NCBI GenBank assembly: GCA_025774615.1
Contig: JALGVQ010000143.1
Span: 1 to 7,561 of the forward strand
Source: a bacterium
Lineage (GTDB): Bacteria; Blakebacterota; Blakebacteria; Blakebacterales; Blakebacteraceae
DNA length: 7,561 nt
Reading direction: 5' to 3'
Shown here: one piece after another, positions 16 through 7,561 of the stretch
How the letters are laid out: each line of letters opens with the position of its first letter
Position numbering within the stretch: the first letter of the stretch is position 1
Notes under the pieces: generated by a model
The model's input: only the letters and a program-made list of their open reading frames with translations
The model's database searches: none
Told to the model about the DNA's origin: nothing
Translations under genes and position numbers: made by a program

Positions 16-2166
16 ATGTTCCTGCCGGCGTTGCTGCTCGTCATATCGGTGCTCCTGCCTGCACGATCGGTCGCCCAGACCGGAAACCGGAACATCAGCC
101 GCGGACTCCCGCTGGGCAGCACATCCGGTCAACTTCTCATCGGGGAACTCTCCGGTGAAATCGCATGGCACCATGTCCGGGAGATCGCTCAATTCCACCG
201 GATCCAGGCCTCTCCGATGATGCGTGAATCGGCTGAATACGTGCTGGCACAGCTGCAGGCGTACGGTCTTGATGACGCGGTCATCGAATCGTTCCCATCC
301 GACGGTCGGCGGTCATATCTGACTCAGCTCTCTCCCGTGCCCTGGACCATTGATGAAGCCGAACTGTGGATGGTCTCCCCTCAGCGGAAACGACTGGCCC
401 GCTTCAGTGAGATCGCCAACTCCCTCGTCACGCTCTCCACTTCAGCCGATGAAGAGGGCGTACTGATCGACGTTCTGGCAAGCGGGTACGGCGGTAACGT
501 GCACCGGCTCGCGGTACTGCGGCACGGCGCTCTCGGAGTGGTCTGCTGGAACGATAATCCGGATCTGCCCGACCAGGTCAGATACACGGGGATGTGGCCG
601 AAGGCGGGCGAACGGGAACGGATCCGCTGGGGATTCAACATCAGCTTCCGTCTCGCGCGCGAGTTGAAAGAGATGCTTGCCGGAGGTGAAGAGGTCCGTC
701 TCCACGCCACGATCACCAACGGCATCCTGCAGGAGGGCACGCTCGACGGCGTCACCGCCACCATAACCGGGGGGAGATACCCGCATCAGGAGATCATCCT
801 GATGGCGCACCTCGACCACCCGAAACCGAGCGCCAACGACAATGCCTCCGGCTCGGCAGCCCTTCTTGACATCGCTCGCGCCCTGCAGAACATGATCTCG
901 GACGGCCGGCTCCCCCGGCCCGACCGGACGATCAGATTCCTCTGGATCGCGGAGATGCACGGGACAGCGGCGTGGCTCGACGCCCACCCGGAGGTTGGTG
1001 AGCGAACCTGTTTCGGCATCAATCTCGACATGGTCGGCACACCGGCCGATCTGAGTGTCCTGCAGGTGATCCAGAACCCCGCTTCGACCTCTTCGGTCCT
1101 TGACCGGGTGATAGCGGCCGCAGCCGAATGGGTCGGCGATACAGCGATCCATGAACCGCGGGGAAGCAGCGCGCCGCTCAACTACCGGGTGAGACCCTAC
1201 TCTGCCGGATCGGATCACTATATGTTCATCGACGGGGCGATCGGTGTTCCGTCGATCATGCTCAACACCTGGCCCGACCCCTACTACCACTCCAGCGAGG
1301 ACACACCCGACCGGGTCGATCCCACCACCCTGAAGCGTTCAGAACTGATCGCCACCGCCACTGCCTGGTCACTGGCCACGCTCAATCCGTCAGAAACAGA
1401 CGACCTCCTGGAGGTGCAGGTGGCGAGTGCCCTCGAACGGCTCCGTCTCGATCAGCGGATAGTCGTCGATATGCTCGAGACCATGGATCGACAGATGGAG
1501 GATGTGAACCTGGCGCTCCTGATCCGGGACGCCGGCATCATGCTCGGCGCCCAGCTCGACAGGGAGATGCGCGCCATCTCCACCCTGATGCGGCTTGCCC
1601 CGGTCGGGATCGACTCAGCTGCAACCGTCGCGTTCCGCATGGCCGTCACCCGGGCGCACGCCCAGCTCGAGGCAGTGGGAACCGTCCTGCGGGACCGCGT
1701 GATGGAAACCGAGATGGAACGGATCACCGGCGAACGGGGGATTACCAACATCCCGCAGTTACTGCCGATCGCGCGCCTGCCGGAGCGTGAGGAAGCAACG
1801 GGCTTGATCCTGCAACGATCGACACGGGGACCGATCACCGACGACTGGTTTCTCGACCACCTGCCGACAGCCCGCAGGCTCTGGTATCAGGAGGGCGAGG
1901 GACGATCACTCTGGGGAAACTCGACTCTGAGGTTCGAGATCGTGAACTACATCAACGGCGGCCGCAGCGCGCTCGATATCTGGTATGCGGTCAGTTCAGC
2001 GTATGGAGTGGTGCCCCTCGCGGCGGTCGTAACCTATCTGAAGGATCTGCAGGCTGCGGGTCTCGTTACCGAGACCAGGGAGAGGAATATCAGCGGAACC
2101 GTATTCCCAGCCGCACCTGCAATCGGGGCTCGGTCCCCGAGTCGGAGACTGCTTCCAGGCTCATGA
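16..2166 (+). CDS. Secreted M28-family zinc metallopeptidase with PA-like insert and long C-terminal extension
   Basis: Probable exported aminopeptidase/carboxypeptidase-type enzyme. Residues 1-21 are a signal peptide: hydrophobic core from Phe2, ending Ser-Val-Ala-Gln. Residues about 45-110 are the usual lead-in of bacterial M28 homologues (HRIQAS at 61-66). About 145-235 resembles a protease-associated insert. The zinc-site pattern follows: His265-x-Asp267, Asp275 in NDNASGS, Glu313, Asp338 in NLDMVG, GSDH at 398-401 and His425 in YYHSSEDT. M28 enzymes normally have Glu-Glu at the catalytic position; here it is Glu313-Met314, as I recall for a subgroup of long M28-like proteins, so activity is likely but not certain. 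Residues 460-716 are mostly helical; about 650-695 (NGGRSALDIW onwards) resembles a winged-helix or PqqD-like fold. The frame is open to base 1 and adds Arg-Arg just before Met. GGAG lies only one base from this ATG, so the real start may be upstream. The last 77 bp overlap the convergent gene. Family confident, substrate unknown. Confidence 0.85.
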   Translation: MFLPALLLVISVLLPARSVAQTGNRNISRGLPLGSTSGQLLIGELSGEIAWHHVREIAQFHRIQASPMMRESAEYVLAQLQAYGLDDAVIESFPSDGRRSYLTQLSPVPWTIDEAELWMVSPQRKRLARFSEIANSLVTLSTSADEEGVLIDVLASGYGGNVHRLAVLRHGALGVVCWNDNPDLPDQVRYTGMWPKAGERERIRWGFNISFRLARELKEMLAGGEEVRLHATITNGILQEGTLDGVTATITGGRYPHQEIILMAHLDHPKPSANDNASGSAALLDIARALQNMISDGRLPRPDRTIRFLWIAEMHGTAAWLDAHPEVGERTCFGINLDMVGTPADLSVLQVIQNPASTSSVLDRVIAAAAEWVGDTAIHEPRGSSAPLNYRVRPYSAGSDHYMFIDGAIGVPSIMLNTWPDPYYHSSEDTPDRVDPTTLKRSELIATATAWSLATLNPSETDDLLEVQVASALERLRLDQRIVVDMLETMDRQMEDVNLALLIRDAGIMLGAQLDREMRAISTLMRLAPVGIDSAATVAFRMAVTRAHAQLEAVGTVLRDRVMETEMERITGERGITNIPQLLPIARLPEREEATGLILQRSTRGPITDDWFLDHLPTARRLWYQEGEGRSLWGNSTLRFEIVNYINGGRSALDIWYAVSSAYGVVPLAAVVTYLKDLQAAGLVTETRERNISGTVFPAAPAIGARSPSRRLLPGS

Positions 2167-3067
2167 AAAAAGGTCCGGTGTTCACCTTCCGGCGGGTGAG
2201 GACCAGTGTGTCGAAGAGGTTGAAGATATATGCCCCTGCCAGGAGGTAACCGGCCCGCTTCTGCCGTTTCTCAACCGCGCGGCGCTGGTCGATCGCCCTG
2301 ATATTCCTGATCCGGTCTGCACTCAACCTGGTGTAGAACTCCTCTTCGGAAACTTCTGTTTCGTGGATCATGAACCGATACTCATTGGTTCCCCAGACCT
2401 GGACCGCCTGATAGCTGTCCCAGTCGAGACGGAACTGGTCGGGAGACGGGGTGGTGGTCCCATAGAGGATCGCCGCCAGAACAACGCCCGCGCTGAGTGC
2501 GGCGTGCAGTGGTTCCCCCTGATTCAGTTGGCCCATTCCCGGAAAGATGAGGGAGTAAAAGAAAGCGGTATCCGCGGGCGCGTAATTCCGTGGATGGGTC
2601 ACTTCGGATGCCAGGATCCTGATACCGGCAATCGCCGCCTCCTCATTGGAAAAGATCGCCGACTCAACGGCATGGATCGCCTTCTCCTCCCGACTGAAGA
2701 GCATGACCGATACTTCGATGCGGCCATCATCGAGCGTATGTGCCACCCCACCGATGATGAATGAAGTGCCTCCGAGTTCAGAGAATTCAAGCAGTTGTGA
2801 AACACTGCTCAATACACTACGGGGAGAACGGCGCCCCAGCTGGCGTGTCACTTCTTCCAGAGTGGAGAGACGCTGTCGAATCGAGAGCCGGACTCCCGAT
2901 CGGAGTTCACCGGTCAACCGGTCAGCGAGAGCATCCCGTCCGGCCGGGACGTTCACCGGCAGAACCATGACCTGCTCGACATAACCGACCTGGGCTGAGA
3001 CGACCGGACCCTGGTGCAGCAGGGCAGTGAGCGCGATCACCATCGTCATACCCGGTGTCCGACTCAT
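2090..3067 (-). CDS. Exported protein with CsgG/TolB-N-like domain and DUF5683-like membrane hairpin
   Basis: A 325-residue envelope protein of unknown function. Residues 1-26 are a signal peptide ending VVSAQ. Residues about 31-155 look like the alpha/beta domain of CsgG/FlgO/TolB-N-type proteins: a VMVLPV strand, a helix with DALADRLTGEL, then FIIGGVAH and a strand pair IEVSVMLFSREEKAIHAVES. Residues 168-203 contain SLIFPGMGQLNQGE followed by a hydrophobic segment, the hallmark of DUF5683-like proteins. A charged region (about 205-272) leads to a second hydrophobic segment (273-290). The C-terminus (RLQVRLGIRFR) is an alternating beta-like strand. I chose the ATG at 3065-3067 because it overlaps the TGA of the upstream lipoprotein gene, has GGGAG eight bases upstream, and is followed directly by the signal peptide; the longer in-frame start at 3163 would lie inside that gene. 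Coupled translation with the lipoprotein is likely. The domain calls are from pattern recognition only. Confidence 0.8.
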   Translation of the reverse strand: MSRTPGMTMVIALTALLHQGPVVSAQVGYVEQVMVLPVNVPAGRDALADRLTGELRSGVRLSIRQRLSTLEEVTRQLGRRSPRSVLSSVSQLLEFSELGGTSFIIGGVAHTLDDGRIEVSVMLFSREEKAIHAVESAIFSNEEAAIAGIRILASEVTHPRNYAPADTAFFYSLIFPGMGQLNQGEPLHAALSAGVVLAAILYGTTTPSPDQFRLDWDSYQAVQVWGTNEYRFMIHETEVSEEEFYTRLSADRIRNIRAIDQRRAVEKRQKRAGYLLAGAYIFNLFDTLVLTRRKVNTGPFFMSLEAVSDSGTEPRLQVRLGIRFR

Positions 3068-4155
3068 GCTCCAGGCTCCCACCGGCCGTACCAGAGTCGC
3101 CGCTCGGCATGACTGTATATACTGACATGGATCGTACCATTCTCGTCGATATGCATCGACCACTTACCGAAGGAGTTGAGATCACTGATCGATGTCTCCC
3201 TCCGCCATCCATCCGTGTACAGACGCGATATCCCAAGGCCCTCCTTGAAGGGATAGAGCACCCACAACTCGCCACCCGGTCCCCTTTTGATCCGTATCCG
3301 ACCTGCCACGACACCCCGGGCGATCCGCCCGCCTGCCAGATCTATCAGGTCACCGTTGCCCAGCCGGTAGAGGATGTGCCTCTGACCCGCCTGATCGTAA
3401 TCCATCGCCAGTGACTGGAAGGAATAGTCGCTTCTGAGAAGATCAGTGACGAGGACGGTCTTTGTCCATTGTCCCGCGGGATCGGCGGCGGTGAAGAGCA
3501 GAAGATCGTATTTGTGGATCGAACGGCCGTAATAGGTGGTCTGGGTCGCAAAGACCGCGACAGCGTGGCCGGTCGGGCCGTGGGCCAGTGCCAGAGACGA
3601 CCGGGGGCTGTTCACATGGATGTCACTCAGAAGGGTCCAGTTTCCGAGCCCGCCATGCCAGTAATTGATATTGTTCCGGTCGCTCTTCAGCTCCAGCAGA
3701 TGGATCCCGTCACCCCGGGGATCGATGATCGGTTCCTCACCGGCGGAACGGAATGGATCGATGCGTTCGTACGCCCAGCTGGTACCGTCGAAACTGGCAT
3801 ACCGCAGATTATCCACGAACATGTCCTGGTACGCCACGTGAAGGGTATCACCGGCACCGCGGCTGATAACCACATCCTCACCCTTCCACCCGATCGTATC
3901 CACCTGGACCCGCTCCCACTTCCCCGGCGCGACCCGGCGGGCATGATGGAGCGTGAGATCCTTCGCATCATGGTAGAGGATGTGCACAGATCCGTCCGAG
4001 GTGGTGGTCAGAGAACTGTGCAGGCCGACCTGATCGCCATTGGCGACAGGTTCGAAGGTCCAGCCCCCCCCACCCGGACCGGTGGGAGACCGGCTGCATC
4101 CCCCCAGTACGATGAGGGTGATGATCATTCCAATGCCTGTTCTGATCTGTCTCAC
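3064..4155 (-). CDS. Lipoprotein with probable seven-bladed beta-propeller
   Basis: A 363-residue lipoprotein, probably anchored in a membrane and facing outside the cytoplasm. The N-terminus has a short basic stretch, a hydrophobic core (IITLIVL) and a lipobox LGGC, giving lipid-modified Cys20, followed by a flexible Pro/Gly linker (SPTGPGGGG). The rest carries a recurring strand of the form DG-x-VH-x-x-Y. Its equivalents centre near residues 58, 106, 152, 197, 260, 298 and 343, a spacing of 38 to 63, typical of blades. Most are followed by an aromatic-rich strand such as LHHARR or LRYASF and then GxW. This resembles BNR/sialidase-like propellers, but I see no catalytic signature, so a binding or scaffolding role is more likely. 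The GTG start at 4153-4155 puts the lipobox at normal depth; GAGG lies upstream in AAAGAGGCGCC. ATG at 4126-4128 is an alternative giving a very short signal peptide. First gene of the unit; its TGA overlaps the next ATG. Confidence 0.82.
   Translation of the reverse strand: MRQIRTGIGMIITLIVLGGCSRSPTGPGGGGWTFEPVANGDQVGLHSSLTTTSDGSVHILYHDAKDLTLHHARRVAPGKWERVQVDTIGWKGEDVVISRGAGDTLHVAYQDMFVDNLRYASFDGTSWAYERIDPFRSAGEEPIIDPRGDGIHLLELKSDRNNINYWHGGLGNWTLLSDIHVNSPRSSLALAHGPTGHAVAVFATQTTYYGRSIHKYDLLLFTAADPAGQWTKTVLVTDLLRSDYSFQSLAMDYDQAGQRHILYRLGNGDLIDLAGGRIARGVVAGRIRIKRGPGGELWVLYPFKEGLGISRLYTDGWRRETSISDLNSFGKWSMHIDENGTIHVSIYSHAERRLWYGRWEPGA
3076..3080 (-). promoter_or_regulatory. Ribosome binding site for the DUF5683-like gene
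   Basis: The minus strand reads GGGAG eight bases before the ATG at 3065-3067, inside the end of the lipoprotein gene. It supports the short start that overlaps the lipoprotein stop codon over the start 96 bases further upstream. Confidence 0.55.
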
Positions 4156-4292
4156 CTCACCCCGGCGCCTCTTTGCGCAGTTTGATACATCCTCGTCGCT
4201 CCCGGTCAGCACAGGCACTATATTCGGTGCTGGCTGTTCTACCATTATGGTAGGGAACGCTTCAATCCCACTGTTGAAAAGGCGCTGACAGG
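4156..4292. promoter_or_regulatory. Divergent spacer with presumed promoters for the lipoprotein unit and gatDE
   Basis: These 137 bp lie between two genes transcribed away from each other, so promoters for both should be here. TATATT at 4219-4224 (plus) is one base from a bacterial -10 box, and the minus strand over the same spot reads TATAGT. Neither has a good -35 partner at 17 bases: the best on the minus strand is ATGGTA, inside the palindrome. The same AT-rich block could serve as a TATA element if the host were archaeal. AAAAGG at 4277-4282, ten bases before the GTG, is the likely gatD ribosome binding site. Presence of promoters is inferred from gene orientation; the exact elements are weak. 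Confidence 0.45.
4239..4253. repeat. Perfect 15-bp palindrome upstream of gatD, possible operator
   Basis: CTACCAT and ATGGTAG form a perfect 7-base inverted repeat around a single central T. Outer bases GTTC (4236-4239) and GAAC (4255-4258) can also pair if GG is bulged, giving an alternative ten-pair stem in RNA. It sits 39 bases before the gatD start and next to the TATATT block, where a repressor site or a leader hairpin could act. There is no T-run after it, so it does not look like a terminator. Function is inferred. Confidence 0.4.
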
Positions 4293-5699
4293 GTGGCATA
4301 CGAAGGCACCTCGAGAGAACTCCTCAACCGGTATGGCGTCGATGTCGGAGACCGGATCATCCTCCAGACACCGCATGGTCCCTATGAAGGGATCATCATG
4401 CCGCGGACCGAGCTCGGTGACGACTACCACATCGTCATGAAGCTGGTCAACGGTTACAACGTCGGGATCAGGATCACCGGCACCGAGACGATAGAGAACC
4501 TCGAAGCAAGCCAGGATGTGGGGATCTACAAGGGCCGCGAACCGGTCTCTGATGAGTCGATGCCCACATTCTCGATCCTCCACACCGGCGGCACCATTGC
4601 CAGCCGCGTCGATTACAAGACCGGTGGTGTCGTGCCCGCATTCACCCCGGAAGAGATCCTCGAACTCTTCCCCGAACTGGAGGAAATCGGGAACTTCCGG
4701 GCCTACCTCGTCTCCAACATGTTCTCCGAGGATATCGAGTACGAGCACGTCGTCAGCCTGGCCAGGGGGATAGAGAAGGAACTCGAGCTTGGCACCAGCG
4801 GCGTCGTGATCACCCACGGCACCGACACCATGCATATCTCATCGGCCGCCCTCTCCTTCATCGCCCAGAAATTGCCGGTACCGGCGATATTCGTCGGTTC
4901 ACAGCGCTCGAGTGACCGGGGGTCGAGCGACGCCAAGATGAACCTGATGTCCGCGGCACGGTTCGCCACGACTGCCGACTTCGCCGGCGTGGGTCTCTGC
5001 ATGCACGAATCGATGGAGGACGACGCCTGCTTCATCCATGAGGGTACCAAGGTCAAGAAGATGCACGCCTCCCGGCGCGATTCGTTCCGGAGCATCAACC
5101 AGGTCCCCTTTGCCCGTGTCTGGCAGGACGGCCGGGTTGCCTGGTTGAGAGATGACCACGCACGCAGGGACCTTGACCGTAAGCCGGAATTCTTCTTCGA
5201 GTTCGAGGAGAAGGTGGCGCTCGTGAAATCATATCCCGGCTTCCAGCCGGAGATCATCAGGTTCCTTACCGAAACCGGGTACCGCGGGATCGTCTTTGAG
5301 GGGACCGGGCTGGGTCATGTTCCGCTGAACGTGCTCGATGAGTACACGGTGCACCATTCAGAGATACTGAAGGCGATCACCGAGTTCGTCGAGAACGGCG
5401 GCACCGTGGTCATGACATCGGCCTCTCTCTTCGGCCGGGTCAGCATGAATGTCTACTCCACCGGGCGGTATCTGCAGAGCGCGGGCGTTGTCCCCGGCGA
5501 AGACATGATGAGCGAAGTCGCGCTGGTGAAGCTCAAGTGGGTCCTCGGGCAGACAACCGATCCGAAGGAGGCCGCCGAGATGATGGTCACCAATTACGCC
5601 GGTGAGATCGCTGAGCGGACCACGTCGAACGTCTTCTACTACCAGCTCCCCCGCGACGATCGGAAAACCGCGAAGGATTGGAACACAGGGAACGAATGA
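4293..5699 (+). CDS. gatD: Glu-tRNA(Gln) amidotransferase subunit D (archaeal-type)
   Basis: Asparaginase-like subunit of the cytoplasmic GatDE complex. It hydrolyses glutamine (or asparagine) and passes the ammonia to GatE. Residues about 15-75 form the small N-terminal beta-barrel domain of GatD (GDRIIL, then YEGIIMPR). From about 92 the L-asparaginase fold begins. Catalytic residues can be placed by family pattern: Thr101 in HTGGTIAS, Thr177-Asp178 in HGTDTM, and Lys256 in KKMHASRRDSF. The ending has the usual GQTTDP and YAGEI blocks. At 468 residues it is slightly longer than the roughly 430-440 typical of archaeal GatD, mainly at the ends. The N-terminal barrel and the paired gatE separate it from a stand-alone L-asparaginase. 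The GTG start is favoured because the next in-frame ATG (codon 36) would delete part of the barrel. Its TGA overlaps the gatE ATG, so the two are probably translated in a coupled way. No damage seen. Confidence 0.96.
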   Translation: MAYEGTSRELLNRYGVDVGDRIILQTPHGPYEGIIMPRTELGDDYHIVMKLVNGYNVGIRITGTETIENLEASQDVGIYKGREPVSDESMPTFSILHTGGTIASRVDYKTGGVVPAFTPEEILELFPELEEIGNFRAYLVSNMFSEDIEYEHVVSLARGIEKELELGTSGVVITHGTDTMHISSAALSFIAQKLPVPAIFVGSQRSSDRGSSDAKMNLMSAARFATTADFAGVGLCMHESMEDDACFIHEGTKVKKMHASRRDSFRSINQVPFARVWQDGRVAWLRDDHARRDLDRKPEFFFEFEEKVALVKSYPGFQPEIIRFLTETGYRGIVFEGTGLGHVPLNVLDEYTVHHSEILKAITEFVENGGTVVMTSASLFGRVSMNVYSTGRYLQSAGVVPGEDMMSEVALVKLKWVLGQTTDPKEAAEMMVTNYAGEIAERTTSNVFYYQLPRDDRKTAKDWNTGNE

Positions 5700-7561
5700 A
5701 CCGCATCGCCGCAGAGCCCCTCGACTATCATGAGATTGGCTTCCTCGGCGGGATCGAGATCCACCAGCAGATCGGTACCCGCAAACTCTTCTGCGAGTGC
5801 GAGCCGCGGATAGTGAAGGACACTCCCGATGAAACAACAGAACGGCGCCTGCACGCGGTAGCCTCCGAGCTGGGAGAGTATGATCCCGCGGCCCTGCACG
5901 AGGCGCATCGAAAACGGACCTTCCACTACGAAAGCTACTTCGACCGTGTCTGCCTGGTTGAACTGGACGAGGAGCCCCCCCACCCGGTCAATCAGGTAGC
6001 TCTTGAGGTCGTGCTTCAGGCAAGCCTGCTGCTCAACGCCCGCGTCGTCGACGAGATCCAGGTGATGCGCAAGACCGTGATCGACGGCAGTAACACGGCC
6101 GGATTCCAGCGCACCATGCTGGTCGGCACAGACGGTGTAGTGGAGACGAACGAAGGTGATGTGATCCTGCACTACTTCTGCCTGGAGGAGGACGCCGCCC
6201 GGATAATGGAAGTGGACGAGCGGAGTGTGCACTACCGGCTCGACCGGCTCGGCATCCCCCTGCTCGAGATCGTGACCGGCCCGGTTTTCAAATCTCCCCG
6301 TCAGGCGGGTGAAGTGTCCGACAAACTGGGACATATCATCCGGTCTCTCAACGTGCGGCGCGGGATCGGCAGTATCCGTCAGGATGTGAACGTCTCGACG
6401 AAATACGGCACCCGCATCGAGATCAAGGGTGTGCAGAAACACCGGATGATCCCACTCATCATGGAGAACGAAGCCCGCCGCCAGAAGGCGCTCTGGGAGA
6501 TCGGGCAGGAGCTGAGCACGCTCTCTTCGAGGATCGATCGGGCCGGGCTGCAGAAGAGAACCCATACCGTTACCGATCTCTTCCGCTCGACCGGATCGGG
6601 CATCCTCCGTTCCCTCATCGACCACGGCGGTGAGGTGATCGCGATCTCGGTCCCCTCCATGCGCGGATTCCCCGCCAGGGAACTCTACCACGGCATGCGA
6701 CTGGCCACCGAGTTCAAAGATCAGCTTCTCACCCTCGGGATCAGGGGGGTCATCCACTCCGACGAGAATGTCGGGAAGTACGGGATATCTCCCACCGAAC
6801 TCGGAACGCTCACCGATGTACTCGGACTGCAGGAGCAGGACGCGTTCATCCTCTTCGCCTCCCGACCAGAGGTCGTGCCACTGGCGCTCGACAAGCTGTA
6901 TGAGCGGATACCTGCCTGCTGGGACGGCGTCCCGAAGGAATCGCGGCGGTCAAAGGGTGTGGGCGGTACCCAGTACATGCGCCCCCTGCCCGGAGAGGCG
7001 CGGATGTATCCCGAGACCGACATCCCGCCGGTCATCATGACACAGGAACGGATCGAGGCATGCCGCTCCACCCTCCCCGAAGTGATCGAAGCCAGAGTGG
7101 AACGGATCTCCGGAATGAGCGGGATCTCCCTGCACGACATCTGGAAGATCGAGGAGTACTTCGACTCCTTCATCTACGGCATCGAGGAACTGGAGCTCGA
7201 TCCGGCTGTGGTGTTCAACGTGGTGGGGAGCAACGTGGTCGACTTCCGTCGCAGGAGAGGTATCACCTTCTCCACCGAAGCGCTGAACCTGCTGCTCGAC
7301 AGGATATCCCGAGGCGGTGCGCTGAAGGAGAATGTCCCTGAGATCCTCGACCGAATGGCCGCTGGTCTCACGATCGATGAGATCATCACCGACCTCTCAG
7401 CGGAATCAGTGGATCTCGATGCCGAGATCGAGGCGATCATCGAAGGGCAGGAAGAGATCCTCGACAATCCGCACTGTCACCGGATCCTCATGGGAGAGTT
7501 GATGGGAGCACTCAGGGGCAGGATCGAAGGAGGGATGGTCTCCCGGGCTCTTGCTACTGCT
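5696..7561 (+). CDS. gatE: Glu-tRNA(Gln) amidotransferase subunit E (archaeal-type), 3' end cut by window
   Basis: Subunit that phosphorylates the glutamate of misacylated Glu-tRNA(Gln) with ATP and amidates it with ammonia from GatD. 622 codons are open up to the last base, with no stop. Archaeal GatE is about 620-630 residues and the ending (GRIEGGMVSRAL) matches the usual last helix, so only a few codons are probably missing. The GatB/GatE cradle shows EIHQQ at 21-25, LFCEC at 31-35, RKTVIDGSNTAGFQRT at 125-140, LEEDAAR at 163-169, YRLDRLGIPLLEI from 180, RRGIGSIRQDVNVS from 221 and EIKGVQKHRM near 242. An AspRS-like (GAD) insertion absent from GatB follows, recognisable at ENVGKYGIS (357-365). 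MRPLPGEARMYPETDIPP (428-445) is a GatE signature. From about 540 the helical and YqeY-like tail, which in the family contacts tRNA(Gln), is present. The GAD insertion and gatD partner exclude GatB. AGGGA at 5687-5691 is a closely spaced ribosome binding site; the start overlaps the gatD stop. Confidence 0.96.
   Translation, partial: MNRIAAEPLDYHEIGFLGGIEIHQQIGTRKLFCECEPRIVKDTPDETTERRLHAVASELGEYDPAALHEAHRKRTFHYESYFDRVCLVELDEEPPHPVNQVALEVVLQASLLLNARVVDEIQVMRKTVIDGSNTAGFQRTMLVGTDGVVETNEGDVILHYFCLEEDAARIMEVDERSVHYRLDRLGIPLLEIVTGPVFKSPRQAGEVSDKLGHIIRSLNVRRGIGSIRQDVNVSTKYGTRIEIKGVQKHRMIPLIMENEARRQKALWEIGQELSTLSSRIDRAGLQKRTHTVTDLFRSTGSGILRSLIDHGGEVIAISVPSMRGFPARELYHGMRLATEFKDQLLTLGIRGVIHSDENVGKYGISPTELGTLTDVLGLQEQDAFILFASRPEVVPLALDKLYERIPACWDGVPKESRRSKGVGGTQYMRPLPGEARMYPETDIPPVIMTQERIEACRSTLPEVIEARVERISGMSGISLHDIWKIEEYFDSFIYGIEELELDPAVVFNVVGSNVVDFRRRRGITFSTEALNLLLDRISRGGALKENVPEILDRMAAGLTIDEIITDLSAESVDLDAEIEAIIEGQEEILDNPHCHRILMGELMGALRGRIEGGMVSRALATA

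Follow-up and report, generated by a model that had tools for sequence, protein, structure and literature searches.

The stretch of DNA analyzed here (the window) is the complete 7561-base contig G000:C207 of the metagenome-assembled genome (MAG) G000, which is 3.3 Mb long, 82% complete, and 1% contaminated. G000 was studied within a lineage set of four genomes that also comprises G001 (a second MAG, from a sister species of the same genus), G002 (from a sister genus), and G003. The features of the window are collected in Table 1.

Table 1. Features identified along the window.
Feature	Positions	Strand	Evidence
M28-family secreted peptidase	16..2166	+	PF04389, 92.5 bits; 86% identical in G001, 72% in G002
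DUF5683-like protein with signal peptide	2090..3067	-	PF18935, 20.5 bits (below cut-off of 26.7); G001 counterpart at the same position, 72% aa identity; start refined to 3067
Putative lipoprotein with LGGC lipobox, transcribed divergently to gatD	3064..4128	-	Sequence; G001 counterpart at the same position, 63% aa identity; start refined from sequence, most likely 4128
Intergenic stretch between the divergent lipoprotein gene and gatD	4129..4292	.	Crossed by a single blastn alignment (706-4969) with G001
gatD, Glu-tRNA(Gln) amidotransferase subunit D	4293..5699	+	GTG start, 468 aa; NCBIfam above cut-off
gatE, Glu-tRNA(Gln) amidotransferase subunit E	5696..7561	+	ATG start; 622 aa up to the contig end, where the 3' end is truncated; NCBIfam above cut-off

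A gatDE pair and its neighbors

The genes for the M28 peptidase, the DUF5683-like protein, and the lipoprotein are context and lie outside the GatDE enzyme. A preliminary description had taken all three for envelope genes; the identity of the M28 peptidase is clear-cut by its Pfam match, whereas the names DUF5683 and BNR-like (the latter for the lipoprotein, 19.5 bits against a Pfam cut-off of 27.3) are suggestive, because both matches fall under their cut-offs. ATGA overlaps connect the lipoprotein stop to the start of the DUF5683-like gene and, at 5696-5699, the gatD stop to the gatE ATG. Positions 1-114 of the window are identical to the end of another G000 contig, C77, which thus lies upstream of the M28 gene. 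The M28 family itself is represented in each of the genomes of G000 and its relatives by around ten or more divergent paralogues, pointing to a protein-degrading life style.

GatD and GatE are intact, full members of their families and carry the catalytic residues. Both clear the NCBIfam equivalog cut-offs by wide margins, i.e., 498.8 bits for PRK04183.1 (cut-off 310) and 495.4 for TIGR02153 (cut-off 324) in the case of GatD, and 605.8 bits for PRK04028.1 (cut-off 456) and 525.3 for TIGR00134 (cut-off 319.6) in the case of GatE, which bears out their initial identification. By Pfam, GatD consists of GatD_N, Asparaginase, and Asparaginase_C domains; it has the N-terminal GatD_N barrel and the type I asparaginase domain with a T/T/D/K active site expected of a GatDE subunit. 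Residues T101, T177, D178, and K256 occupy the asparaginase-type active-site positions, and are assigned as catalytic on the basis of the known 2D6F enzyme. In GatE, the equivalog models and a structure model reveal the GatB-like cradle, the AspRS-like (GAD) insertion, and the C-terminal tail. The Pfam GatB_N domain and the GAD insertion are both over cut-off, and the GatB_Yqey tail scores 22.4 bits alone, against a cut-off of 27, and 27.8 bits with its neighbors in frame. The profile match reaches position 621 of 630, so that GatE lacks just its final few residues at the contig end, and every invariant family column is kept. The structure model (pLDDT 89.6) has 1zq1 and 2d6f as its top PDB matches, followed by the GatB of GatCAB. 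Indeed, both subunits align across nearly their full length with the solved archaeal enzymes of Methanothermobacter thermautotrophicus (2D6F) and Pyrococcus abyssi (1ZQ1), with which they share the GatD active site, the cradle, GAD insertion, and tail of GatE, and a DGSNT signature.

A bacterial host and a resident locus

The host was characterized by sampling G000 through targeted searches and 17 stretches. We found a bacterial GlnRS, YqeY, an MsbA-like transporter, RelA/SpoT, a heptosyltransferase, and a MacB-like protein, and CCA is genome-encoded on the tRNAs inspected. These characters together identify G000 as a diderm bacterium, GlnRS being unknown in archaea (PMC9499178). A 16S rRNA search of the G000 bin found none, and the same search missed known controls. 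The preliminary description had hesitated between a bacterial lineage carrying GatDE and an archaeon that had acquired bacterial envelope genes; the host markers speak for the first alternative and dismiss the second.

That archaeal gatDE genes became joined to bacterial ones in a chimera, or that the contig was misbinned, could be suspected from a contig of just 7.6 kb, from the archaeal-like character of GatDE, and from G002 and G003, where it was not seen. We consider such contamination very improbable. On the contrary, the order M28-DUF5683-lipoprotein-gatD is identical in the independent assembly G001, and an uninterrupted 4.36 kb blastn alignment at 75% nucleotide identity runs from the M28 gene through the first half of gatD. 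The chimeric join that had been envisaged near 4156-4292 is spanned by this alignment and is hence refuted, as is contamination or chimera of gatD itself. Moreover, the tetranucleotide distances of both halves of the window lie inside the range of 54 other G000 chunks, so that the composition matches the bin and agrees with the uniform codon choice that the preliminary description had suggested.

The divergence between the two MAGs is as expected for the genus (92% identity for GatD and 86% for M28). Among the four genes compared with G001, gatD has the lowest dN/dS (0.063, against 0.11 for M28, 0.16 for the DUF5683-like gene, and 0.26 for the lipoprotein gene). Gene order shared with G001, this low gatD dN/dS, and a composition that fits the bin argue that the locus is resident and under selection, and purifying selection on gatD implies that the enzyme is in use. 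gatE was recovered from G000 alone, the G001 contig stopping within gatD. We did not find GatD in G002 (72% complete) or G003 (63% complete), so that gain of gatDE cannot be polarized against its loss. The M28 gene, which occurs in G002 with other neighbors, is native to the lineage, judging by its sequence. In conclusion, gatDE is a genuine, expressed-looking operon resident in this genus of diderm bacteria.

Placement and distribution of bacterial GatDE

Reviews up to 2022 describe GatDE as restricted to archaea (PMC9499178, PMC8007984). A survey of bacterial-domain genomes overturns this premise, which the preliminary description had shared: 35 of the 386 sampled carry GatE at E <= 1e-70, 24 of them over the curated cut-off, and the control set matches the GatE profile solely in its four archaea. 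We found no report of bacterial GatDE in the literature that we searched, which covered few subscription journals. What is new is hence the contradiction with the printed archaea-only rule; the enzyme family is known, and databases may already annotate such genes.

The window's copy stands apart from most of these bacterial ones. Excluding it, 29 bacterial GatE form one clade against 80 archaeal GatE. A careful tree built on 48 rows separates this bacterial clade from the archaea plus the window with a support of 100/100, and the GatD tree agrees, placing the window on the archaeal side (SH-aLRT 100). An alignment-based search of a named genome collection returned archaeal proteins for all of the best 80 GatE matches (35-41% identical), and these 80 listed matches all share with the window the signature DGS(N/D)T.xFQR, as opposed to DGSIP(T/A)GFQR in the bacterial clade; beyond these best 80, further bacteria with a GatE like that of the window may exist in the collection. 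A single-protein GatE scan of the genome collection found no relative. The GatDE of the window and that of the bacterial clade are alike in being gatDE pairs of bacteria, often accompanied by GlnRS and lacking GatB; they differ by the DGSIP signature of the clade, by a GatE identity of 30-37%, and by a position of the window copy outside the clade at 100/100 in the tree. However, AU tests do not reject a grouping of the window with the bacterial clade (p 0.281 for GatE, p 0.248 for GatD), and the window GatE sits on a long branch (1.44) among weakly supported ones. Thus, of the proposed comparison with archaeal references, the archaeal side stands in the trees, and the copy could nevertheless join at the base of the bacterial/archaeal split. 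We looked for an archaeal donor in the GatE trees and none was identifiable, given the weak support around the window and its own long branch. GatDE likely reached the lineage by transfer from archaea or from an early-branching archaeal-like source.

The 35 bacterial GatE carriers most often have GlnRS and lack GatB (17 genomes), the others having GatB alone (8), both (6), or neither (4). GatB is rarer in GatE carriers (14/34) than in other sampled genomes (30/32; Fisher p 5e-6, kinship ignored). In G032, G151, G314, and G315, three of which are at least 98% complete, GatE is present and neither GlnRS nor GatB was found. Such a pattern would be predicted if bacterial GatDE served to make Gln-tRNA, and GatDE may be the sole route to it in these four genomes.

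Gln-tRNA synthesis in the lineage and the role of GatDE

In the lineage of the window, the searches for glnS and gatB that had been proposed recovered a bacterial GlnRS in 4/4 genomes, including the two without detected GatDE, and detected GatB in none of the four. The lineage accordingly differs from bacteria that use GatCAB, an enzyme of the same chemistry in which GatB shares with GatE the cradle and YqeY-like tail, and in which an amidase-type GatA stands in place of the asparaginase-type GatD. The first base pair of tRNA-Gln, also singled out for inspection, proved to be U1:A72, with G73, in tRNA-Gln(UUG) of G000, and the same was found in tRNA-Gln(CUG) of G002; this is the kind read by bacterial GlnRS. 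On the contrary, the archaeal tRNA-Gln read by GatDE has A1:U72 and A73 (PMC9499178). The lineage tRNA-Gln thus lacks the A1:U72 pair of the archaeal substrate, which is a property of the substrate and not of the protein.

As for the partner enzyme, a search of G000 and G001 found no GluRS of either the discriminating (D) or the non-discriminating (ND) kind; the GluRS of G002 is of the ordinary bacterial type. The gltX gene of G002 precedes tRNA-Gln(CUG) and tRNA-Glu(CUC), and since these two linked tRNAs are missing from G000 too, the missing gltX of G000 is probably one assembly gap. We therefore set aside the absence of GluRS in G000 and G001 as a biological signal. Elsewhere in G000, apart from its normal tRNA genes, contigs C283 (at 3354, 6861, and 13513) and C200 (at 930 and 2736) hold short, 64-65 base tRNA-Val(UAC)-like repeats with low tRNA scores.

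Compared with archaeal GatDE, the enzyme of the window hence resides in a bacterial host with GlnRS and a U1:A72, G73 tRNA-Gln, its GatE is just ~40% identical, and the partner ND-GluRS was not found in G000 and G001. Nothing in the lineage obviously calls for GatDE in Gln-tRNA synthesis: with GlnRS present and tRNA-Gln bacterial, GatDE is not the obvious sole route. This weakens the earlier expectation that GatDE bears on how the lineage makes its Gln-tRNA. A true dependence on GatDE, with a non-discriminating GluRS and a GlnRS of other or partial role, would fit the strong selection on gatD and the lack of any D or ND GluRS seen in G000 and G001; it appears improbable, as GlnRS is kept in all four genomes, even in those two where GatDE was not detected, and the gltX gap has the assembly explanation given above.

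We favor the view that the locus encodes a working, archaeal-side, putative Glu-tRNA(Gln) amidotransferase, which the cell probably retains, next to its GlnRS, for a second or salvage route. In this family, GatD releases ammonia, and GatE carries out phosphorylation and amidation. Here, GatD would free ammonia from an amide donor glutamine, and GatE would phosphorylate and so activate the gamma-carboxyl of Glu on tRNA-Gln, then amidate it with that ammonia, converting mischarged Glu-tRNA(Gln) to Gln-tRNA(Gln) alongside GlnRS. tRNA-Gln is thereby the presumed substrate. The family scores, the 1zq1 and 2d6f matches, the synteny with G001, the gatD dN/dS of 0.063, the trees, and the DGSNT signature support this explanation, as do the presence of GlnRS with no GatB detected in the lineage, the scarcity of GatB among bacterial GatE carriers, and the four carriers in which neither GlnRS nor GatB was found. 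It is weakened by the U1:A72, G73 of tRNA-Gln, by a GlnRS that makes the route look redundant, by the negative search for a GluRS in G000 and G001, by the recovery of gatE from G000 alone, and by the AU tests.

The chief rival is that GatDE has been repurposed, so that its target would be a different mischarged tRNA or a carboxylate outside tRNA, or that GatD would act mainly as a glutaminase/asparaginase. The presence of GlnRS, a tRNA-Gln that does not begin with the archaeal pair, the length of the GatE branch, and the prevalence of GlnRS without GatB among bacterial carriers all point in this direction. However, GatE retains the cradle, the GAD insertion, the tail, and all invariant family columns; a conserved, coupled gatE would be needless for a mere glutaminase; and tRNA identity could have moved along with the enzyme. 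We thus hold repurposing to be rather unlikely, and prefer the second or salvage route of Gln-tRNA synthesis.

More broadly, bacteria may tentatively be viewed as holding at least two GatDE branches, the broad clade and the archaeal-side one. Where GlnRS is present, these would serve an unrecognized purpose, such as the repair of mischarged tRNA or the amidation of another substrate, in place of bulk Gln-tRNA synthesis; this broader scheme is possible, if doubtful. The confinement of GatDE to archaea has been used in reviews to argue how amidotransferases and tRNA-Gln evolved and why GlnRS never entered archaea (PMC9499178, PMC8007984). The occurrence of GatDE in bacteria, together with GlnRS and with a tRNA-Gln whose first pair is not the archaeal one, takes away the premise of an archaea-only distribution, and the presence of GatDE and GlnRS in one cell provides a direct test of whether the two exclude each other.
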